From: Methylomonas aurea
GTDB lineage: Bacteria; Pseudomonadota; Gammaproteobacteria; Methylococcales; Methylomonadaceae
DNA length: 64,000 nt
Direction: 5' to 3'
Assembly: GCF_024505045.1 (NCBI RefSeq)
Contig: NZ_JANIBM010000007.1
Location: forward strand, 1 to 64,000
In this document: positions 6,536 through 62,806 of the stretch, one piece after another
Position numbering within the stretch: position 1 is the first letter of the stretch
Layout of the letters: every line of letters begins with the position of its first letter
Notes under the pieces: model-generated
Told to the model about the DNA's origin: nothing
Seen by the model: only the letters and a program-made list of their open reading frames with translations
Database searches by the model: none
Position numbers and translations under genes: made by a program

Positions 6536-9500
6536 TCAAACGCCCCGTTTCTCGGCCAATTCCTGCAAGATTTGCTCGAGCAAGCCGGCGAGTTCCGTTG
6601 CCAGTACCGCCGCGCCGGCATTGCCGTCTTTGGCCGCCGATTCGGTTTGCTGCGCCAGTTGCAACAAGCCCTGTGCCTGGAAAATACCGGCAAAGGCCTT
6701 CAGGTTATGGGCGGCAAACTTGATCGCCGCCAGATCGTCCTGAGCCGCGGCCAGCCGCAATTTTTCCAGCATCTGCTGCTGGCTGCCGTCCAAAGCGTTG
6801 ACGATGATCTTGTCGACAAACGCCTGGCGGCCGTCGAAACGTTCCAGCATCGCTTGCCAATCGATCAGGCTGGAACTCGGCGGCGACTTGTCGCCGGTTT
6901 GTATAGGCGGCAGCGCCGGTACGGCCGCCGCCGGTACCGCAGCGGGTGGCGCAACCCGGATCGGTACTGCCTTCAGAATAGCTTTGACCAAGGCATTTTC
7001 GTCGACCGGTTTGGTCACCCGGTCTTTCATGCCAGCCTCCAGGCAGCGTTTGCGTTCGTCTTCCATGGCATGGGCCGTCAGCCCGATCACCGGCAAATCC
7101 GGCGCGATTTCCGCCAACCGGCGCGCAGCCTGGTAACCGTCCATGACCGGCATCTGAATATCCATCAACACTAGATCGAAGGCTGCAACGCCCTGTTGCT
7201 GCAGCAAGTCCAGCGCCTGTTGACCGTTCTCGGCGAAAACCACTTCGGCGCCTTCGCTGTTCAAAATGTCGGCCAGCACCAAACGGTTCAATTCCACGTC
7301 TTCGGCAGCCAGAATCCGCATGCCGTGCAAGCGCAGGCCGCTCGCCGCCATTACCGCGTTGTCGCCGGCGTCGGGCTCGGCAGCCGGTAACGGCAGCGTC
7401 AATACGAAGGTGCTGCCGGCACCGTAGGCGCTCTGGACGTCGATGTCGCCGCCCATCAAGCGCGCCAGATTGCGGCTGATCGCCAAGCCCAGGCCGCTGC
7501 CGCCGAATTTGCGCGTGGTCGAGGTGTCGGCTTGTTCGAACGCGGTAAACAGACGCTGTACCTGTTCCTCGGTCATGCCGATACCGCTATCCATCACGGC
7601 AAAGCGCACATCGTCGCCGCGGCGGCCGATCTTGACTGCGACGTAACCGCGCTCGGTGAATTTGACGGCATTGGACAATAAATTCAGCAATATCTGTCGT
7701 AGGCGCAAGCCATCGCCAAGCACCCACTCCGGCAGTTCGCCTTCGAACTGCACCACCAGCGTCAACTGTTTTTCCCGCACCCGCAACTCCAGTAAATCGC
7801 GGACTTCACCGATCAAATCCGCCAGCTTGAACGGATGCGGGTCCAACTGCATCTTGCCGGATTCGATTTTGGAAAAATCCAGAATATCGTTCACCACGTT
7901 AAGCAAATGCTGGCCGGCCTCAAAGATTTTTGCCATGTTGGAGTTTTCGCTGCCGGCTTCGCGCAGGTTGATCTTGGCCAGACCGAGGATTGCATTCAAC
8001 GGCGTCCGAATTTCGTGGCTCATATTGGCCAGAAAATCGCTCTTGACCTGAGCCAAATGCTCGGCTTGCAAGCGCGCCTGCTCTTGAGCGGCCTGCACCG
8101 CCTTCTGCTCGCTGATGTCGCGGATCACGCCGATAAAGGTGCTGCCCTGGTCATCGATCAGCTCGCTGACCGTCAATTCCAGCGGAAAGGTGCTGCCGTC
8201 GATTCTGGCCCCTTCGAACTCGACGCACCGGTTCAATATCGTGTGGGTGCGATTAGCCATGTAATTGGCCAGATAACCGTCGTGGCGCGAGTGGTAGGGT
8301 TCCGGCATCAACCGTCTGACGTTGTTTCCTAACAACTCGTGCTCCTCGTAACCGAACAATTCGCAAACCGCATCGTTGACCAGCAGAATGCTACCGACAC
8401 TGTCGATCAACACCACGCCGTCGGCCATGGTGCGCAATATCGCCCGGTTGCGGGCCTCGCTCGCCACCAGTTCCAGTTTGGCCCGTTTGCGCTCGCTGAT
8501 GTCGCGCACGGTAGCCTGCACCAAATTTTCGCGGCCGGCGGCAATGCAGCTTAATTGCACTTCGGCAAAAAACAGTTCGCCGCCTACCCGCTGGTGCTGC
8601 CACTCGAAATGATGGGCGCCGTCGCGCAACGCCGCCTCGATATGGCGGGCCGCCGCCTCGGCCGACGATTCGCCGTTCGGCTGGTACTCCGGCGACAGCA
8701 AAACCGGCGACAAACTCAGCAAGTGCGCGAGGTCGCGGCAGCCGAACAATTTGACCGCGGCCGGATTGGCCGATAAAAAGCCGCGTTCCGGGCTCAGGGT
8801 CATGATGGCGTCCAACGAAAATTCAAACAAGGCGCGGAAGCGTTGCTCGCTGTCCCGCAACGTGGCGGCGGACTGTTTCTCCAGCGAAATATCGCGGATG
8901 AAGGCATTGAACTCGGTGGTATCCGCCAATTTAATCGGGGTGATCGCCAATTCCACCGGAAATTCTTCGCCGCTACGGCGCACGGCGGCGACTTCGATAC
9001 GGCGGTTCAACGCCTTGCCCTCACCGCTTTCCAGAAAGATTTGCAAGCCTTGCAAGTGGGCGCCGCGCAACCGCTGCGGGATAATCGTTTCGTGCAGCAT
9101 GCGGCCCAACACCTCGTCGGCCCGCCAACCAAATATGGCCTCGGCCTGGCGGTTCCAGCCACTGATTTCGCCGCGGCCGTTCATTTGCACGACGGCATCC
9201 AGCGCGGTATTGACGATGCTGCGCAAACGGATTTCATCCTGTTTGCGTCCGGCCAGCAGCGCGGCAAAGCCGTCGGCCATGCGGTTGAAATAGGCTGCCA
9301 CCCGGCCGATTTCGTCGCCGGAATCCTGCGCCAGCCGCTGCTGCAAATCGCCCTCGGCAAAGGCCTTGGCCGCTTTCGCCAAACCGGCGATGCTGGCGCT
9401 GAGCGACAAATGGGCGCCAATCGAGAAATAGGCGATCAACACCAACAGAAAGCCCGGAATGCCGACGCTGACACCCAGCGTAGTCCGCATCTCGCCAATC

Positions 9501-55118: not shown

Positions 55119-55625
55119 TTACTTTTTCAGCAGCGCACACCGCCGCTGCCGGATCAGCAATGCCGTTGCTACGATCGCGATTTCCAATGCAAACGCGCGG
55201 TGAAATAGAAAGTTCAACCACCACGGTTGGTAGACTCGCTCCACGATAGTCAACGAAAACGGCTGCAACACAAACGGCGCCAGCCAGTAAATATTGCTGG
55301 CGACATAATCCAGCAGCATGTGCAGGAAGCCGTTGCCGGCAAATACCAAAGCCAGCATCGGCAGGCGCCGGTCCGCGCTGCGCCGGTAGTAAACCGCGGC
55401 CGCCGCCACCAGCAACAGCCAGGTCAGCGGAAAATGGCTGAAATAACTGTGGTGCGGGTGCATGCCGCCGTCCACCAGATAAAAGTAAATCATGTCGAAA
55501 TCCGGCGCCACCGCACCCAACATACCGCAACGCAGATAGGTTTTACATTCCACTTGCAGCCTGGCGGTCATTGGATAAGTCAATACCGAGACGATATAGC
55601 CGGCCGGTAAATGGGCGATCAGCAT
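55119..55625 (-). CDS. Membrane-bound metal-dependent hydrolase-like protein (DUF457/YbcI family)
   Basis: 168 residues from ATG 55625, overlapping the creD stop by 3-7 bp, so translationally coupled. It has four or more hydrophobic helices plus AHLPAGYIVS at the N-terminus, GAVAPDFDMIYFYL, HHSYFSHFPLTWLL and GNGFLHMLLDYVASNIYWLAPF. The H...DFD...HHxxxxH...H...D arrangement is typical of the DUF457/YbcI/YdjM inner-membrane hydrolase family. The activity is unknown. Co-transcription with creD suggests an envelope-related role. Confidence 0.8.
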   Translation of the reverse strand: MLIAHLPAGYIVSVLTYPMTARLQVECKTYLRCGMLGAVAPDFDMIYFYLVDGGMHPHHSYFSHFPLTWLLLVAAAAVYYRRSADRRLPMLALVFAGNGFLHMLLDYVASNIYWLAPFVLQPFSLTIVERVYQPWWLNFLFHRAFALEIAIVATALLIRQRRCALLKK

Positions 55626-56998
55626 GATTCCCTCCCACTGGCGGCGGCCGCGGCGGTGCCGGTGTCGGCCAACGCGTACCAATCCAGCTTGCGCGTCGCC
55701 AGCATCGCGATGCTCAACACCGCAAACAACAGCAACGAACCCAGCATCAACGCGTTATCTTCCGATTCCAGCAAGCCGTACAGGCTGGCGAACAAGGCCG
55801 CCAACAACACGCCGGCCGCGGTGCCGCGAGCCGCGCTGAGCAACACCGCGCTCAGATAGACCGCAATCAGCAGCACGCAAGCTCCGCTCGCCAGGCAATA
55901 CGCCGCAGCGAACGGCAAATGCTCCGACAGGCTGAGCAACAACAAAAAGAACATCGCCAACGCCAAACCGACCAAGGCGTATTGGGCCGGATGGATCGCC
56001 AGTTTTTTCAGGAGTTCGAACAGAAAAATCGCAGCGAAGGTCAGGCAGACGAACAAGAAGCCGTACTTGGCGGCGCGATCGGACAAGGAATAGACGTTGA
56101 TCGGTTCGATCAGGCGCACGCCGAAACTGTCGTAGCTGGCGATATGGCGCACCCCGCTCAGATTGCGGCCGACATTCGAAGCCAAGGCATCCACGCTCCA
56201 GGCCGCGCGAAAACCGTCGGTACCGGTCTGCTGGCTGCTCGGGTCAGGCAAAAACCGGCCGAAAAAGCTCGGGTGCTGCCAGGCTGAGGCCAGCTCGACT
56301 TGGGTATGCTTGCCGGCCGGGACGAATTCCAGCGCTTCGATGCCGCGCAGCTTCAAATCGAAGCCGAACGGAATCGAGATCGGACCGAATTCGACCGGCA
56401 TCGGCTCCAGATTGGCGTGCATGCCGCTGGCATCCTCCAGCGGCAAATTCGAACCTTGTTCGAAGGCATAGGTTTTGCCGGCCCATGCCACGCCCGGCGC
56501 CGCCAACACGCCGCGCATATCCGACAAGGCAATGCCGATATAAGGCGTGCCGAATTGGATGCGGCCGCCGTGCAACGACGGCGGATTGCCGTAGCCGCCG
56601 GGCAGTTTGATCTCGCCTTTGCCGGACAGATTCACCACGTAAGAACGGACCTCGAACAGGCCGCGGCGTTTGGTCTCGGTTGCCAGCTCGCCGGTCAGGC
56701 GCAATTGCTCGGGTAAAAAGTGTAAATAGCGCAGCTCGCTGCGTTGCTGCACCTCGCGCACCGCGGTGCGGTCGCGGATGGTTTCGGAGACTTCGCTCCA
56801 AATTTCGTGATAAGGCACCACCAGTACCGGACCGAACAGCTTTTGCGGGCCGGCCGAGCTGGCGGCGATATCGTTTACCGCCTGCAACTGCCGGTTCTCG
56901 CGTTCGTTCGCCAGGTCCTTGACCATGCCGATCGGGATCAATAACAGCAGCGTCAACACCGCCATTGCCGCCGCTTTTTGCCAGAGTTTGTTTCGCAT
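55619..56998 (-). CDS. creD: Inner membrane protein CreD
   Basis: A 459-residue protein with one N-terminal helix, a large periplasmic domain (LFGPVLVVPYHEIWSE; LPEQLRLTGELATETKRRGLFEVRSY; FGFDLKLRGIEALEFVPAGKHTQVEL; SWQHPSFFGRFLPD-like AWQHPSFFGRFLPD) and five or six C-terminal helices (YGFLFVCLTFAAIFLFELL; HPAQYALVGLALAMFFLLLLSLSEH). This is the CreD family, controlled by CreBC and related to envelope integrity and, in Aeromonas and Stenotrophomonas, beta-lactam response. A matching CreB box lies 71-86 bp upstream. creBC are not in the window. Confidence 0.93.
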   Translation of the reverse strand: MRNKLWQKAAAMAVLTLLLLIPIGMVKDLANERENRQLQAVNDIAASSAGPQKLFGPVLVVPYHEIWSEVSETIRDRTAVREVQQRSELRYLHFLPEQLRLTGELATETKRRGLFEVRSYVVNLSGKGEIKLPGGYGNPPSLHGGRIQFGTPYIGIALSDMRGVLAAPGVAWAGKTYAFEQGSNLPLEDASGMHANLEPMPVEFGPISIPFGFDLKLRGIEALEFVPAGKHTQVELASAWQHPSFFGRFLPDPSSQQTGTDGFRAAWSVDALASNVGRNLSGVRHIASYDSFGVRLIEPINVYSLSDRAAKYGFLFVCLTFAAIFLFELLKKLAIHPAQYALVGLALAMFFLLLLSLSEHLPFAAAYCLASGACVLLIAVYLSAVLLSAARGTAAGVLLAALFASLYGLLESEDNALMLGSLLLFAVLSIAMLATRKLDWYALADTGTAAAAASGRESC

Positions 56999-57253: not shown

Positions 57254-57375
57254 AGGAATCTCTAACAATTGCGCTTCGACCAACTCAGCGCGAACGGCAG
57301 CCCTTATAAATCAGAGCATTATCCGTTCGTGCTGAGTTGGTCGAAGCACGAACGGATAATTGTTAGAGGTTCCCC
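57254..57375. repeat. MITE/REPIN-like element, family 2, copy E
   Basis: About 120 bp, near-identical to copy D (37758-37877). Left end GGAATCTCTAACAATT; right end AATTGTTAGAGGTTCCC. The stem bases differ from copy D on both arms in a compensating way. Inner core CCGTTCGTGCTGAGTTGGTC. No ORF. Confidence 0.8.
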
Positions 57376-57380
57376 CCAAA

Positions 57381-59501
57381 TCATACCGCCTGCGATACCG
57401 CCTCGCGCCGGCCGCGCTGGGCAAGGGCCTGCAAATCGATCACCCGGTCCACCGAGGCGATGGTTTCCGGGCGGTGGGCGATGATGATGCGGGTCAGCTT
57501 CAATTGCTGAATCGCGCCGTTGACCAGACGCTCCCGCGCCACGTCCAGATGGCTGGTGGCCTCATCCAAAACCAGAATCTTCGGCCGTTTGTACAAGGCC
57601 CGCGCCAACAGTACCCGTTGCTTTTGACCGCCGGACAATACGGTGCCCATGTCGCCGATCAACGTGTTGTAAGCCATCGGCATCGCTACGATGTCCTGGT
57701 GTACCGCCGCCAGTTGGGCGCAGGTTTCGATCCAGGCCTGGTCCGGTTCCGGATCGAAGAAACAGATGTTGTCGGCGATCGAACCGGCAAAGAGTTGATC
57801 TTCCTGCATCACCGCCGCGACCATGTCCCGATATTCGCGATTGTCGATTTGCGGCAAGCGCACGCCGCCGACCAATATTTCGCCGGAGCTCGGCTGCAAC
57901 AGGCCGAGAATCAACTTGGCCAGCGTGGTCTTGCCGTATCCGGACGGACCGACGATGGCCACCGATTCGCCGGCCTGGATGTCCAGACTCAGATTGCTGA
58001 TCACCGCCGGTTCCGACGGCGCATAGCTGAACTCCAGATCGCGGATTTGCAGCGAGGCCGGCAAGTCGCGCTGGCCGCAGCCCAAGCCGGCGCGCTCGGT
58101 GTCGGCCAGGGCGATATCGGCCACCCGCTCGGTATGCAGGCCCAGCATTTTGAATTCGATACTTTTCTCGATGAAGCTGCCGACCCGGTGGGTGAATTGG
58201 TCCTTGAACGACATGAAGGCAAACAGCATCCCCACCGAAAAACCGCCGTCCAGAATGAACAGCGCGCCAAGCCAGACCACGGCGATGTTTTCCAGACCGA
58301 ACAACAGGCTGTTCAGTGCCTTGTAGACGATGCCCAGCTTTTGCACGCGGATGCCGGCGTTGAAGTGGTCCACCATCAGATTCTGGTAACCGACCTTGCG
58401 TTGCGACTCGCGGTTGAACAACTTCACGCTCTGCATGCAGCGCACGGTTTCCAGCAGATTGGTCTGCTGTTTGGCGCCGCGCAGGATTTGTTCCTCGGTC
58501 GCCAGCCGCAACGGCGTGAACAGGCCCAGCCTCAATAGACCGTATAACGCGGCCGCCAGGCAGACGATGGCGGCCAGTTTCCAGCTATAGACCAGCATCA
58601 TCGCCAGCGTGGCCAGCGCCATCGCGCCGTCGACGATGGCTTCCAGGAAACTAGTGGTCAGCGTGCGTTGGATCACGTTCAACGATTCGAACCGGGAGAC
58701 GATGTCGCCGAGATGGCGTTTTTCGAAAAAACTCATCGGCAACTGCAGTAAATGGCCGAACAGATTGCTCAGCAATTGCAGATTGGCCGAGGTGCTCAAG
58801 ACCAGGACCACCCAGGAGCGCAATGCGGTAATTGCGGTCTGGATCAGAAACAGCAACAAAAAGCCCAAGCCCAGTACGGTCAGCAGGTTGTCGTCGCGGG
58901 CCACGACCGCGTTATCGACCACCAATTGCATAAAAAAAGGCGCGACGATGGCAAACACTTCAATGGCCGCAGCCAATAAAACGATTTGCCAGATCGCGCC
59001 GGCGGCCCCATCCAACTGGCCAATCAGGCGGGAGAGCTTGATTTGTTGACGTTCGGTTTTCGGCGTAAAGCTTTGGGTCGGCGCCAGCTCCAAGGCGATA
59101 CCGGTGAAATGTTTGGAGATTTCGCTATACGGCAGATTCAGCACGCCTTTGGCCGGATCGTGTATTGTCGCCACGCCGCGCTTGACCTGGGCCAGCACCA
59201 CGAAGTGGTTGAAATCCCAATGCAGGATCGCCGGCAGGCTCAGCTTGCTCAGCTCCGGCAAATCGACTTTGACCGGGCGCGAGGCCAGATGCAACTGGTC
59301 GGCGATGCGGATCAAATGGTTCAGGGTCGAGCCTTTCAGCGACACCGAAAACTTGCGACGTAAACTGGCGACGTCGAGCCGGTGGCCGTGGTAGGACGCC
59401 ACCATCGCCAGACAGGCAAGCCCGCATTCGGCGGCTTCGGTTTGCAGAATCGACGGCGTTTTCTTGCGGCCGGAAAAATCCAGCATGGCTTGTATGCTCA
59501 T
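57381..59501 (-). CDS. C39 peptidase / ABC exporter for double-glycine peptides (PCAT)
   Basis: A 706-residue protein. The N-terminal C39 cysteine peptidase has Cys26 in QTEAAECGLACLAM, His99 in HWDFNHFVVLAQV and Asp115 in HDPAKG, the full triad. A six-helix ABC transmembrane domain follows (~160-440). The nucleotide-binding domain has GPSGYGKTTLAKLILGLLQ (Walker A with Tyr), VLSGGQKQRVLLARALYKRP (signature) and ILVLDEATSHLD (Walker B), then the switch His in IIIAHRPE. It cuts leaders after GG and pumps the core peptide through the inner membrane. The HlyD-family partner lies 2 bp upstream, and the two GG-leader peptides are in the same operon. Confidence 0.94.
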   Translation of the reverse strand: MSIQAMLDFSGRKKTPSILQTEAAECGLACLAMVASYHGHRLDVASLRRKFSVSLKGSTLNHLIRIADQLHLASRPVKVDLPELSKLSLPAILHWDFNHFVVLAQVKRGVATIHDPAKGVLNLPYSEISKHFTGIALELAPTQSFTPKTERQQIKLSRLIGQLDGAAGAIWQIVLLAAAIEVFAIVAPFFMQLVVDNAVVARDDNLLTVLGLGFLLLFLIQTAITALRSWVVLVLSTSANLQLLSNLFGHLLQLPMSFFEKRHLGDIVSRFESLNVIQRTLTTSFLEAIVDGAMALATLAMMLVYSWKLAAIVCLAAALYGLLRLGLFTPLRLATEEQILRGAKQQTNLLETVRCMQSVKLFNRESQRKVGYQNLMVDHFNAGIRVQKLGIVYKALNSLLFGLENIAVVWLGALFILDGGFSVGMLFAFMSFKDQFTHRVGSFIEKSIEFKMLGLHTERVADIALADTERAGLGCGQRDLPASLQIRDLEFSYAPSEPAVISNLSLDIQAGESVAIVGPSGYGKTTLAKLILGLLQPSSGEILVGGVRLPQIDNREYRDMVAAVMQEDQLFAGSIADNICFFDPEPDQAWIETCAQLAAVHQDIVAMPMAYNTLIGDMGTVLSGGQKQRVLLARALYKRPKILVLDEATSHLDVARERLVNGAIQQLKLTRIIIAHRPETIASVDRVIDLQALAQRGRREAVSQAV

Positions 59502-59503
59502 GG

Positions 59504-60751
59504 TTACACCCTTCCGGCAATGCTATAGAGCGGTTCGAAAATCCAGTCGATCAAGCGGCGGTGGTCCAGCCAGATGTCGGCATCCAGCAACATGCCGGAC
59601 TGCAACGGGATCTCCTGGCGATAGGCCTGCACCGACTGTTTATCCAGCACGACCGTGACGCGGTAAACCGCTTCCTGCAAGGTCACCGGCAAATCGGCGT
59701 CCTTCGGCGTGATCAGCGTTTTGGCGATTTCAACGATGCGGCCCCGGTGGCTGCCGAAACGCTGGTAGGGAAAGGCCTGGTAACGGATCGCCACGGTTTG
59801 GCCGGTCTCGACGAAACCGACCGCGCTGGACGGCACCAGCAGTTGCGCCTGCAATTGAGCGCCGGCCGGCAAGATCGACAATAACGGATTGGCGGTGCCG
59901 GCATTTTGGCCCTGTTCGGCCAGAATCGCGGTCGCGGTGCCGTCGTGCGGCGCAGTGATGACGATGTTGCGCCGCGACTCGGATTCGGTGATGTTCTGGG
60001 TCAAGGTCGAGATGTTGCGTTCGATTGCCGCGCGCTGGTTTTTAAACTTCATCTGGCTGCTGTCCACTTCCAACTGGGTGGCGCGGATGTCGCGCTGCAG
60101 CGTCATTTCGATGCGTTGCAAGGCCTGCAATTTGGCTTGGTGGTCCAGCCATTCGTCCTGTTTTTGCTGGGCCTGTACCGCCGAGACGAACTTGGTCGGC
60201 AGCAACTGCTGGTAGCGCTGCAGCGTGGCTGCCGCCCCGGCCAGGCGTTGCTGTTGGGTAGCGATTTCGCTATTGACCTGCTGCAGTTCGCGTTGCATGC
60301 CTTGCAAGCGGTCCAGCAGAGCGCGGTATTGAATCCGGTCGATTTGTTCCTGCTTGCCCAACTCGGTTTCCAGGCTTTCCCGGCGCTGCTTGAGCTGTTC
60401 GATTGCGGCGGCCTGGGCCTGCGGCGTGTCGCGGGAACTGCTGTCGGTCGACAATACGAACAAGGTATCGCCGGCTTTTACGGTTTGGCCTTCCTTGACG
60501 TGTTTTTCGATCAGGGTGCCGGCTTGCGGCGGGTAAACTTTGATCAAACCCATGCTCGGCGCCAAATAACCGCTGACATGGGATTTACGGGTGTATTCGC
60601 CCCAGAAGGCGAAGGCGATCAGCAGCACCGCGCTGCTAACCGCCAATGCGGTAAGTAAGGAAAACGGCAAAGCTTCCACCCGTATCACCTCTCCCAAAGG
60701 CTTGTCTCTTTTGTAATCCAAGGCTTGTTGCCGAAATAATGCCGGTTTCAT
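59504..60751 (-). CDS. HlyD-family secretion adaptor (CvaA-like)
   Basis: 415 residues: a short cytoplasmic N-terminus, one transmembrane helix (~32-50, LLTALAVSSAVLLIAFAFWG), a lipoyl half-motif (GLIKVYPPQAGTLIEKHVKEGQTVKAGDTLFVL), a long coiled coil (~95-250), a second half-motif (VITAPHDGTATAILAEQGQNAG) and a beta domain ending WLDHRRLIDWIFEPLYSIAG, as in colicin V/microcin export adaptors. It links the PCAT exporter to an outer-membrane channel that is not encoded here. It sits 45 bp after the cysteine-rich gene. Confidence 0.92.
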   Translation of the reverse strand: MKPALFRQQALDYKRDKPLGEVIRVEALPFSLLTALAVSSAVLLIAFAFWGEYTRKSHVSGYLAPSMGLIKVYPPQAGTLIEKHVKEGQTVKAGDTLFVLSTDSSSRDTPQAQAAAIEQLKQRRESLETELGKQEQIDRIQYRALLDRLQGMQRELQQVNSEIATQQQRLAGAAATLQRYQQLLPTKFVSAVQAQQKQDEWLDHQAKLQALQRIEMTLQRDIRATQLEVDSSQMKFKNQRAAIERNISTLTQNITESESRRNIVITAPHDGTATAILAEQGQNAGTANPLLSILPAGAQLQAQLLVPSSAVGFVETGQTVAIRYQAFPYQRFGSHRGRIVEIAKTLITPKDADLPVTLQEAVYRVTVVLDKQSVQAYRQEIPLQSGMLLDADIWLDHRRLIDWIFEPLYSIAGRV

Positions 60752-60796
60752 GCTGCCGTTCTCCTCTCACCTGTGCTGTGTTAAAGACCAAAGCGC

Positions 60797-61231
60797 TCAG
60801 ATAACGCCGTAATCGGCCGCCCGCCGCATCTCGTCGCTGGGTTTGAGGTTATTGGTCACCACTTGCGGACATCTGAAACAAGCCGCCTTCCCCTCCTGGT
60901 TCCACCAGCGGCAATCGGCGCGAATCGCGCACACCGGCAATTGCTCGGTAACCGACGGCGTGAAGCGCACGACTTTTTCGGCCAAGCGACATTTCGATTC
61001 CTCGGCGGCAAAATGGCCGCATCCGCTGCAGGCGCAAGGCGCGGAGAAGCGAAACACTTCGGCCGGCGTCAACGGGCCGGCCATGGCCAGCACTTGCTCG
61101 GTGACCGGTTGCGGCGTATTCAGATAGGCCATTTCCGGCTGTTCCGGGGTACCGGCCACAACTCCGATGACTTGGGCTCCGTCCCACTCCGGCTGCGCGC
61201 TGGGGCATAACACTGCGTTATCCGAGGCCAT
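60797..61231 (-). CDS. Nine-cysteine accessory protein of the GG-peptide operon, unknown function
   Basis: A 144-residue soluble protein with cysteines at 9, 66, 68, 71, 81, 101, 107, 118 and 121. Two clusters stand out: C66-x-C68-x2-C71 with C81 (APCACSGCGHFAAEESKC), and C101-x5-C107-x10-C118-x2-C121 (CAIRADCRWWNQEGKAACFRC). Each supplies four ligands, so two Fe-S clusters or two zinc sites are possible. There is no signal peptide, SAM motif or kinase/cyclase motif. It starts 7 bp after the second precursor gene, so it belongs to the operon. I do not recognise the family; a role in precursor maturation, regulation or self-protection is inference. Confidence 0.75.
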   Translation of the reverse strand: MASDNAVLCPSAQPEWDGAQVIGVVAGTPEQPEMAYLNTPQPVTEQVLAMAGPLTPAEVFRFSAPCACSGCGHFAAEESKCRLAEKVVRFTPSVTEQLPVCAIRADCRWWNQEGKAACFRCPQVVTNNLKPSDEMRRAADYGVI

Positions 61232-61238
61232 GGCGCGC

Positions 61239-61520
61239 TCAACCCAGCCGGGTTGCTCCTTGGATACCGGCCGCCAAGCCGCCCGCGGCTGGGTTGGTGG
61301 CCAAGCCGTTGACGGCTTTGAATTGGTCGAACCATGGGCCGCCGGCGATGATGCCTTTGCTCAGCACCAGGCTGACCGAGGCGCCGCCGCTGACTTGCTC
61401 CAGTTCGGCGGCGCTCAATTCGCTGCCGGCCGCGGCGCGGGCCTGCAATGCGCGTTGCTTGCCTTGTTCGGCGAAAGCGGATAAGTCTTCGGCGGAAATC
61501 CGGGTAGTTTTATTTGACAT
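61239..61520 (-). CDS. Double-glycine leader peptide precursor 2 (bacteriocin-like)
   Basis: 93 residues from ATG 61520, behind GGAGAG. The 46-residue leader ends LSAAELEQVSGG. The predicted core is 47 residues, rich in Gly and Ala with several hydrophobic segments (SLVLSKGIIAGGPWFDQF; NPAAGGLAAGIQG) and no cysteine. It resembles class II or two-peptide bacteriocins more than lanthipeptides. The leader motif is shared with the neighbouring precursor, which supports processing by the C39 exporter of this operon. No target or activity can be read from the sequence. Confidence 0.85.
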   Translation of the reverse strand: MSNKTTRISAEDLSAFAEQGKQRALQARAAAGSELSAAELEQVSGGASVSLVLSKGIIAGGPWFDQFKAVNGLATNPAAGGLAAGIQGATRLG

Positions 61521-61551
61521 GTTTGCTCTCCAGAATGTGGTTGGAAAATCC

Positions 61552-61743
61552 CTAGCGCACCAGAACGTTCTGGGCCAAGGTTTTAGCGTTGATCACGCTG
61601 GCGCCCGGATTGATCACCGGCCAGAATTTGCGCGGAAACTGGCTCAAGTCGCCTTCCGGGCCGATCAGGCCGCCGGATACCAGCGCCGACTCCTGTGCCG
61701 ACAAGACCTTCAGGTCTGAGGTAAATGCTTGTTGTTTGGACAT
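61552..61743 (-). CDS. Double-glycine leader peptide precursor 1 (bacteriocin-like)
   Basis: 63 residues from ATG 61743, with GGAG 7-8 nt upstream. The 25-residue leader ends LSAQESALVSGG, then a 38-residue core (begins LIGPEGDLSQFPRKFWPV) with net positive charge, a Trp and no cysteine. It is first in the operon, 31 bp before precursor 2. The two cores are unrelated in sequence although their leaders share LSAxExxxVSGG. That suggests either a two-component bacteriocin or two independent products of one exporter. Confidence 0.85.
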   Translation of the reverse strand: MSKQQAFTSDLKVLSAQESALVSGGLIGPEGDLSQFPRKFWPVINPGASVINAKTLAQNVLVR

Positions 61744-62251
61744 GTTCTTGCTCCATCGGAAAGAAAAATCCGGACCGGGTCCGGCGTCGTGAACATGCGG
61801 AATCGATACAGCCGTCGGGCCGTCTCGCTACCGCTCCCCGCCTGCGGCCGCTAGCCGTTGGCGGGTGTGGATACTTTAGGGACGCCGGCCGGCCGGAGGC
61901 TGTGACAAATTGCACTGCCCGGCTGTGGAGTTGTTAACCTGGAGAATCGGGAAGTTAGGATCGGTCGGGCGGGCTGCAGATTGCGACTGAAGGGTATTGT
62001 TCGTCCAGCCAATACCGCTCGATTCCGCGAAGAATAACCCCGATGGAGGCCAAGGCCTGTGGGACGATCGCTTTCGGTTGATAGCGCAAATTTCGCGGCC
62101 GCGAAGGTTGGATTTCGGGTCTGGCCCGGCCGCGGCGATTCGGTCGTTAGCGAATCCCAACGACCGTCAAAACGATACCGATCGGCATTGATCCTGCCTG
62201 GATATCAAAGACGCCCCGTTAAGAAAGTAATCTCTGAACATGAGGAGTCTT
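61744..62251. other. Upstream region of the GG-peptide operon and left flank of the IS3 remnant
   Basis: It must contain the peptide operon promoter on the minus strand, but no clear -35/-10 pair was found. A TGTGACAAATTGCACT stretch (61911-61926) is a half-matching CRP-like site. At ~62189 a TGATCCTGCCTGG sequence could be the worn left end of the IS3-type element. Confidence 0.4.
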
Positions 62252-62660
62252 ATGGAAAACAAGGATCAAACAGCCGTTACCACAGCAAAGCCTAAACGCA
62301 ATAAACATACGCCCCAGTTTAAAGAGCAAGCCTTGGAGCGTGCCAAGCAAGATGGCGTCCCCAAGGCAGCCAAAGATTTAGGCATTGCCCAGGCGATGCT
62401 TTATAGCTGACAGGCCAAAAGCCGCCAAACCGGTCAGCCATTTGAAGAGCAAAAACTGCAACAAGCAGAAATCGCGCGGCTTAAACGGGAAAGTGCTCGC
62501 CTGGAAGCGGAAGTCGCTTTTTTAAAAAATCAAAGGAAAAAACGTCCACCCTCGCCAAGAGCGCAAGCGCAGGAAGCCATGGCCGATGCAATCAAGAGGG
62601 TATTTGACGATGAAAAGTCACGCGCCGGTTCGCCACGCATAGCCAAGCGTCTCAACGCAG
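62252..62660 (+). pseudogene. Decayed IS3-family transposase (orfA-orfB fragment)
   Basis: From ATG 62252 the frame reads as an IS3-type OrfA (MENKDQTAV ... TPQFKEQALERAKQDG, KAAKDLGIAQAMLYS). An in-frame TGA at 62408 stands where Trp is usual. The frame then continues QAKSRQTGQPFEEQKLQQAE ... VAFLK, and joins abruptly to an OrfB fragment (ARAQEAM-like RAQAQEAMADAIKRVFDDEK, SRAGSPRIAKRLNA). It stops matching after ~62660. So orfA has a nonsense mutation, the orfA-orfB junction is deleted, and the rest of orfB with the integrase core is missing. The element is dead. Confidence 0.85.
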
Positions 62661-62806
62661 CGATACTCGCGCGATATAAAAGGCGCCTTCGGCATTTTCC
62701 GCTACTCAGTTTCTTGCCTGCGGTTAAAGAACCAAGTCAATGTGAGTCGCCCACCCTCGTATTCATACCCTGGCGAACGCTCGCCGAGTTGTGGTTATAA
62801 TCCGCT

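Follow-up and report, generated by a model that had tools for sequence, protein, structure and literature searches.

The window analysed here, 64,000 nucleotides of Methylomonas aurea (contig NZ_JANIBM010000007.1), contains an operon of five minus-strand genes, running from 61743 to 57381, that encodes two peptide precursors with double-glycine (GG) leaders, a cysteine-rich protein, an HlyD-type adaptor and a C39 peptidase-containing ATP-binding cassette (ABC) exporter. The GG-peptide export operon is of a known kind; what is new is the unnamed, widely distributed Cys-rich partner (P0001, 144 amino acids; 60797..61231, minus strand), whose gene is paired with GG precursor genes in both Methylomonas and cyanobacteria. 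We tentatively propose, with a confidence that stops a little short of even, that P0001 is a cytosolic metal- or iron-sulfur (Fe-S)-binding protein dedicated to the neighbouring peptide before export, which it would modify or keep export-competent. We favour this reading because of the pairing in two lineages, the metal-site-like conservation of the cysteines, and a sequence conservation far above that of the peptides and exporters.

Relatives of P0001 were compared in 53 loci: 16 from Methylomonas, 24 cyanobacterial, eight from other Pseudomonadota, three from Streptomyces, one from Spirosoma and one from a metagenome-assembled genome (MAG). L004 and L105 lie on the same contig, so that the 16 Methylomonas loci represent 15 genomes, and cyanobacterial L026 and L087 are near-identical. 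Among the other Pseudomonadota, L027 and L032 are named alphaproteobacterial plasmids and L044–L049 fall outside the window's class. The neighbourhood counts exclude L009/L043 (a partial second Moorena copy), L070 (a stop inside the gene) and L025 (a contig edge), use longer stretches in place of short first loci, and leave three phage-like contigs (L106–L108) to be described apart. A neighbour was scored when an open reading frame (ORF) of 40–200 amino acids with a fixed GG-leader pattern lay on the same strand no more than 300 bp away; the controls were other genes in the same loci that encode 120 amino acids or more. By this measure a GG-leader ORF stands beside the Cys-rich gene in 16/16 Methylomonas loci, compared with 7/146 control genes, and in 20 of the 24 cyanobacterial loci, compared with 29/190 control genes; these cyanobacterial controls come from loci rich in peptide genes, and some of them have the same precursors as neighbours. 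When any ORF of 40–200 amino acids within 300 bp is counted, the Cys-rich gene and the controls score 16/16 and 135/146 in Methylomonas, and 23/24 and 148/190 in cyanobacteria.

All 16 Methylomonas loci have a GG precursor that ends 10–16 bp before the matched Cys-rich domain, and HlyD and peptidase-containing ABC transporter (PCAT) matches that adjoin the Cys-rich gene. In the window the gene directly upstream is that of the precursor P0002, a position kept in 16/16 other Methylomonas loci (15 genomes); counterparts of the first precursor, P0003, are also present in those loci. A close orthologue of the exporter (>1000 bits) occurs in 16 of 37 Methylomonas genomes; the Cys-rich gene is present in the same 16 and in a seventeenth, G030 (78% complete), where the exporter was found only as a 62%-identical piece with a stop. 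Each genome has a single Cys-rich match at most, while distant PCAT-like genes occur in the genus. These more distant genes show 55%, 44–46% or 32–34% identity; full-length ones (55%, 44–46%) are found at G012:C1:2270703-2272754 and in G025, G006, G023, G028 and G036, with a single Cys-rich gene there.

Nineteen of the 24 cyanobacterial loci have a GG precursor within 300 bp upstream of the Cys-rich gene on the same strand. The precursor lies 26 bp downstream in L088 and L089. The near-identical loci L026 and L087 have one of NHLP type, ending some 450 bp upstream of the matched Cys-rich domain. In L090 the Cys-rich gene is missing its N-terminal part, and a different kind of GG ORF follows about 370 bp downstream. 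When a profile built from 14 partner precursors of cyanobacteria was run over 386 genomes, it matched in 18; the Cys-rich gene is present in 23 genomes, which include all 18, and none of the 363 others matched (Fisher p about 1e-26). Since the training set consisted of precursors linked to the Cys-rich gene, and scoring stopped at the first 10 or 14 candidates in each genome, this result is to be read as a precursor family not seen without the Cys-rich gene. The five Cys-rich genomes without a profile match are G524 (stop inside the gene), G744 (N-terminal part lacking), G835 (NHLP-type precursor), and G697 and G557 (precursor downstream). Of 24 precursor places, 20 are within 500 bp of the Cys-rich gene and the other four are more distant or on a different contig; among precursors that match the profile in the same genomes, those at G561:C50, G561:C91 and G800:C1:4583364 lie a long way from the Cys-rich gene or on separate contigs. 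Many cyanobacterial cores contain a PPI[TI][VI]GLI-like sequence, and 10/17 of those precursors are Cys-free. Nif11-type ORFs and a radical S-adenosylmethionine (SAM) gene are present in 16/24 loci, the other 8/24 being without that radical SAM gene within 9 kb; the one such protein tested scored 841 bits for TIGR04103 (cut-off 725). An HlyD homologue occurs within 9 kb in 17/24 loci, mostly on the opposite strand.

Between the window and cyanobacterial loci L005/L006, the Cys-rich protein shows 54–56% identity, the peptidase-ABC protein 31% and the HlyD protein about 22%; the first figure being far above those of the export proteins, the Cys-rich sequence has been kept while exporters and cores change. 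Within the genus, four Methylomonas were compared, and identity in the most distant one is 67% for the Cys-rich protein, 54% for the P0002 leader and 30% for the P0002 core. The nearest named match, a record of Methylomonas koyamae SM2, is 99% identical over the Cys-rich protein.

The preliminary description called P0001 a nine-cysteine protein. Nine cysteines are present, whereas eight define the family: at each of these positions 52 or all of the 53 distinct sequences have Cys. C68, the middle residue of the described C-x-C-x2-C cluster, is Cys in just 15/53. R61, R104 and G114 occur in 53/53 sequences and W109 in 52/53. The spacing, C9 and C66-x4-C71-x9-C81 followed by C101-x5-C107-x10-C118-x2-C121, suggests two four-Cys groups, C9/C66/C71/C81 and C101/C107/C118/C121. 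Conservation of this kind is typical of metal sites, and P0001 is a putative binder of zinc (Zn) or Fe-S. By eye the protein has no signal peptide, GG leader or membrane segment, consistent with a probable cytosolic location. It was also described as unrecognised, and so it is in the curated libraries: no Pfam or NCBIfam match is better than E 0.1, there is no PADLOC match, and a profile of 14 relatives gave a single match to PDB sequences at E 1, taken as chance. Scanned singly against Pfam, 14 family members gave a best E of 0.0052, for one member, and six proteins scanned against PHROGs gave a best E of 0.0012 in a 17-residue alignment with a family of unassigned function. Candidate paralogues in the same genome were rejected, the two weak matches, one at E 0.003 across 46 residues and one at E 0.18, being taken as chance; the operon copy alone passes E 0.001. 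No name for the protein was found in the open-licence literature searched, where Methylomonas combined with double-glycine gave no papers.

The exporter half of the operon is ordinary. C39 domains cut GG leaders, and C39-ABC systems export peptides. P0005 (706 amino acids; 57381..59501, minus strand) is a PCAT-type exporter with Peptidase_C39 (PF03412, 123 bits), ABC_membrane (PF00664, 124 bits) and ABC_tran (PF00005, 112 bits) domains, and its Cys26, His99 and Asp115 align with PCAT1 (4ry2) as a complete C39 triad. P0004 (415 amino acids; 59504..60751, minus strand) matches HlyD_3 at 52.6 bits (cut-off 22.2) and TIGR01843 at 148.9 bits, below the cut-off of 208.65, and has the place of the HlyD adaptor in type I secretion (ABC/HlyD/TolC). 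None of the five operon proteins is a TolC-type outer membrane channel, which was not looked for in the rest of the genome. The intergenic gaps from 61743 to 57381 are 31, 7, 45 and 2 bp.

Precursor 1, P0003 (63 amino acids; 61552..61743, minus strand), has a leader at residues 1–25 and a core at 26–63 with DLSQFPRKFWPVINPG; precursor 2, P0002 (93 amino acids; 61239..61520, minus strand), has a leader at 1–46 and a core at 47–93. Both are Cys-free. The leaders end in LSAAELEQVSGG (P0002) and LSAQESALVSGG (P0003), with the common pattern LSAxE...VSGG, and the positions before the cut are L-12, E-8, L-7 and V-4 in P0002 and L-12, E-8 and V-4 in P0003. Leader positions of the L-12, E-8, V-4 type are described for C39 recognition in the available text of PMC6363468, and both leaders appear to fit this consensus for C39 cleavage. 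Both precursors carry the GG leader of class II bacteriocins and microcins; in Pfam and NCBIfam, P0002 matched bacteriocin models below cut-off only and P0003 matched none. Neither matched an NHLP or Nif11 leader model at E 1 in NCBIfam. The Cys-free precursors and the lack of an MbnB or MbnC match among those listed for the operon proteins in Pfam and NCBIfam set the operon apart from methanobactin. No known tailoring enzyme was seen among the five operon proteins in Pfam and NCBIfam (for P0005, among the best 25 of 191 NCBIfam matches). A PlpX-type radical SAM protein is also not among them, the whole window not having been scanned for it. The preliminary description is borne out in its five packed genes, its two Cys-free precursors with a shared leader pattern, its intact C39 triad within an established transporter half, and its statement that no known tailoring enzyme is visible.

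Relatives of the Cys-rich protein span at least four phyla according to taxonomy lines. They occur in 17 of 61 genomes near that of the window, all 17 within the genus, and in seven of 398 genomes drawn from its phylum, the window's own genome being included in both counts; in 23 of 386 genomes from the phylum of the cyanobacterial locus L006; and in one of 246 genomes of the phylum of the MAG locus L008. Nine plasmid records (from Nostoc, Agrobacterium vitis, Spirosoma, Streptomyces and Polymorphobacter) and three IMG/VR contigs (L106–L108) also carry them; further scans of viral contigs returned the same contig again or nothing. In a tree whose bootstrap had not settled, the Methylomonas sequences are compatible with a single group, as are the cyanobacterial ones, both weakly supported, and Spirosoma was placed with L047–L049 on long branches. 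Transfer of the gene between phyla is likely.

The setting of the gene differs in other lineages. By eye, a GG ORF adjoins the Cys-rich gene in Spirosoma, with an annotated NHLM set alongside. In L027, L044, L045, L047 and L048 a non-GG small ORF ends 2–67 bp before the matched Cys-rich domain, and the search of these five loci for PCAT- and HlyD-like genes gave one match, an ABC gene 6.9 kb off in L044. Downstream of the Cys-rich gene in L046 is a small ORF containing VSGAG. In the Streptomyces loci, the small ORF before the Cys-rich gene has a signal-peptide-like start, by eye, in two of three. Several relatives have no PCAT- or HlyD-like match in the 8–10 kb flanks examined. The preliminary description had asked whether the protein co-occurs with PCAT genes: it does in 16/16 Methylomonas loci, while Spirosoma has the NHLM set and the three phage-like contigs an ORF resembling the major facilitator superfamily (MFS). 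The Cys-rich gene, lying near other exporters or without a PCAT/HlyD match nearby, is therefore not a general part of PCAT systems.

Further observations concern individual loci. The MFS-like ORF lies directly downstream of the Cys-rich gene in 3/3 of the phage-like IMG/VR contigs; that of L106, the sole one scanned, had a best E of 3.7e-10, below every cut-off. In L032 a radical SAM gene is flanked by two small ORFs sharing H-x-KG-x-FSK...TK, at 378–2291 counted downstream from where the Cys-rich ORF begins, and these could possibly form a separate RiPP (ribosomally synthesized and post-translationally modified peptide) set. The Streptomyces plasmids L030 and L031 both have, in the same order, a response regulator, a helix-turn-helix (HTH) protein, a small ORF and the Cys-rich gene, and a peptide-regulator pair is conceivable there. 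In L027 (8001–8369) and two more Agrobacterium vitis plasmid records, the Cys-rich ORF is not listed in the (incomplete) plasmid table and the small upstream ORF is.

Around the operon of the window, nested inverted repeats lie just 3′ of the exporter gene (57255..57373, no strand) and may be a terminator or a mobile palindrome. A 12-mer of this repeat occurs four times in the window with at most one mismatch, against 0.23 expected; with further places at 8709 and 37834, it is perhaps a dispersed palindromic element. Upstream of the operon, at 62240–62700, a stop-broken stretch resembles by eye what is left of an IS3-type transposase gene; its first ORF of 56 amino acids has no Pfam match at E 0.001. 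Downstream and on the same strand as the operon are a CreD gene (55619–56998, 450.6 bits) and a gene for a YdjM-type membrane protein (55119–55682, 43.7 bits).

According to the proposed mechanism, the two precursors would be made first, and the Cys-rich protein, with two putative four-Cys sites for Zn or Fe-S, would bind the neighbouring precursor. It would then modify this precursor or keep it export-competent. The C39 domain would finally cut after Gly-Gly, and the cores would be released by the ABC exporter and HlyD together with a TolC presumably encoded elsewhere. The stronger claim, that P0001 founds a new class of peptide-maturation proteins, small and dependent on a metal or Fe-S, and that together with the precursor it defines a RiPP class, we consider doubtful. 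Such a class would have stayed hidden because the Cys-rich protein has no known enzyme domain.

Several results weigh against the proposal of a peptide-dedicated metal protein. Outside Methylomonas and cyanobacteria the GG pattern is found beside the Cys-rich gene in 0/13 loci, compared with 4/163 control genes, and any ORF of 40–200 amino acids within 300 bp in 12/13, compared with 159/163. The small-ORF rate there is not above that of the controls, and a small neighbour in these loci is therefore not evidence of pairing in itself; the view that a precursor-like ORF is almost always upstream in them was dropped after this comparison, which also lowers our confidence in the proposal. The preliminary description had named, as grounds for giving up its idea, a family found mainly away from GG-peptide operons: this is not the case in Methylomonas and cyanobacteria taken together (36/40 with a GG ORF); in the other 13 loci the fixed pattern picks up no GG ORF, the one of Spirosoma being seen by eye. 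The restricted training and scoring of the precursor profile count in the same direction. Two AlphaFold runs gave a mean pLDDT (predicted local distance difference test) of 51.6 and 54.3, with the Cys-rich half mostly below 50, and Foldseek found no fold match at E 0.001 or better. Conserved polar residues are few beyond the cysteines and two arginines, so catalysis is not evident.

A recognition element common to the Methylomonas and cyanobacterial leaders is not supported either. A leader helix looked alike by eye in the lineages, yet a Methylomonas-trained profile ranked the cyanobacterial partners at background (best rank 799, E 430), and the candidate was rejected; the background comprised 8763 ORFs with some true precursors left in. 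Among partners outside the training sets, L106 and L046 did best: L106 gave E 0.017, E 0.79 and, in the third training, rank 155, and L046 gave E 1.7 in one. The leader profiles of Methylomonas and cyanobacteria matched at E 5.3e-5, a value equalled by P0002 and P0003 at 4.1e-5, whose alignment spans the generic GG box alone; minus the GG box, the match between the lineages fell to E 0.028. The Nostoc C057 Cys-rich protein seemed by eye to carry such a helix as a fusion; this candidate was also rejected (i-E 69 in one training, unlisted in two). The core motif P.{3,4}[VLI]G[LIF][IVW], a relaxed form shaped after the sequences were viewed, occurs in 12/17 cyanobacterial partners (the loci outside the 17 being L026, L080, L083, L087, L088, L089 and L090), 5/6 of other Pseudomonadota and 1/1 from the MAG, against 23/8752 background ORFs; the strict cyanobacterial form occurs in one of the six other Pseudomonadota partners, against 2/8752. 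The motif is no more than suggestive. It is found in 0/5 Methylomonas partners, a further point against the proposal, as well as in 0/1 from Spirosoma, 0/1 phage-like and 0/2 from Streptomyces, and it is absent from P0003.

The linkage in Methylomonas and cyanobacteria would equally serve a cytosolic chaperone or export adaptor that hands the precursor, chemically unchanged, to the exporter, and Cys-free window precursors in an operon without a known tailoring enzyme suit such an escort. We nevertheless find it rather unlikely, as several relatives have no PCAT- or HlyD-like match in their flanks and no PCAT is known to depend on a helper of this kind. Bacteriocin immunity genes often adjoin the precursor gene, and no other candidate immunity gene is among the five operon genes, which speaks for P0001 as an immunity protein against the secreted peptides. 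Set against this are its conservation in the most distant of the four Methylomonas (67%, compared with 30% for the P0002 core), its 54–56% identity to cyanobacterial proteins whose neighbouring cores look unrelated, and the lack of a membrane segment by eye, many class II peptide immunity proteins being membrane proteins; immunity is thus also improbable in our estimate.

A role as a regulator that senses metal or redox state and controls the operon or peptide production is unlikely as well: the two four-Cys groups could serve as such a sensor, and in two Streptomyces plasmid loci the second gene upstream encodes an HTH protein, but no DNA-binding domain was matched in P0001 in Pfam or NCBIfam, the gene sits inside the operon between precursor and adaptor, and it is paired with one precursor family in cyanobacteria. 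Next to the peptide-dedicated metal protein, then, escort, immunity and regulation may follow in about that order. Least credible by far is that the Cys-rich protein is an effector and its small partner an antidote or co-factor, export having been added later. The toxin-antitoxin-like spacing of the small ORFs in the five other Pseudomonadota loci recalls such pairs, with controls equally rich in small ORFs; there is no PADLOC match, and in Methylomonas and cyanobacteria the GG leader is on the small partner, not on the Cys-rich protein.

Most RiPP mining takes known enzymes as its starting point; here, a short protein absent from the curated libraries predicts where a GG precursor lies in methanotrophs and cyanobacteria. 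If it is true that the Cys-rich protein modifies peptides, it represents a new maturase class. If it acts in immunity or as an escort, it is still a conserved component of GG-peptide systems for which no description was found in the open-licence literature searched.

The operon shares features with several known systems. The best NCBIfam name for the exporter is from NHLM (TIGR03796, 488 bits, cut-off 853.3), as is the second-best for the adaptor (TIGR03794, 65.8 bits, cut-off 156.2); neither protein reaches its cut-off, both falling far below, and the precursors lack NHLP and Nif11 leaders. Spliceotide clusters are defined by PlpX, which we take to belong to TIGR04103 (nif11-class radical SAM maturase 3); a homologous radical SAM gene accompanies 16/24 cyanobacterial Cys-rich loci, unlike the operon of the window. 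PlpX is the splicease described in the available text of PMC11002830. In the cyanobacterial bacteriocin clusters of Wang and co-workers 2011 (PMC3140520), as far as the available text goes, peptidase-ABC and HlyD genes lie near GG precursors, as in our cyanobacterial loci, and one recurrent neighbour gene in the latter resembles, by eye, the SurA-type rotamase of that paper. The same text mentions no Cys-rich partner, and the word "cysteine" is absent from its main text. The operon also resembles PCAT1, ComA and LahT with GG precursors like those of class II microcins and bacteriocins, which have the same C39 triad, ABC and HlyD components and L-12/E-8/V-4 leaders, the leader consensus being the one given in PMC6363468. 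To such PCAT systems the operon of the window adds a conserved Cys-rich partner, unnamed in the libraries searched.

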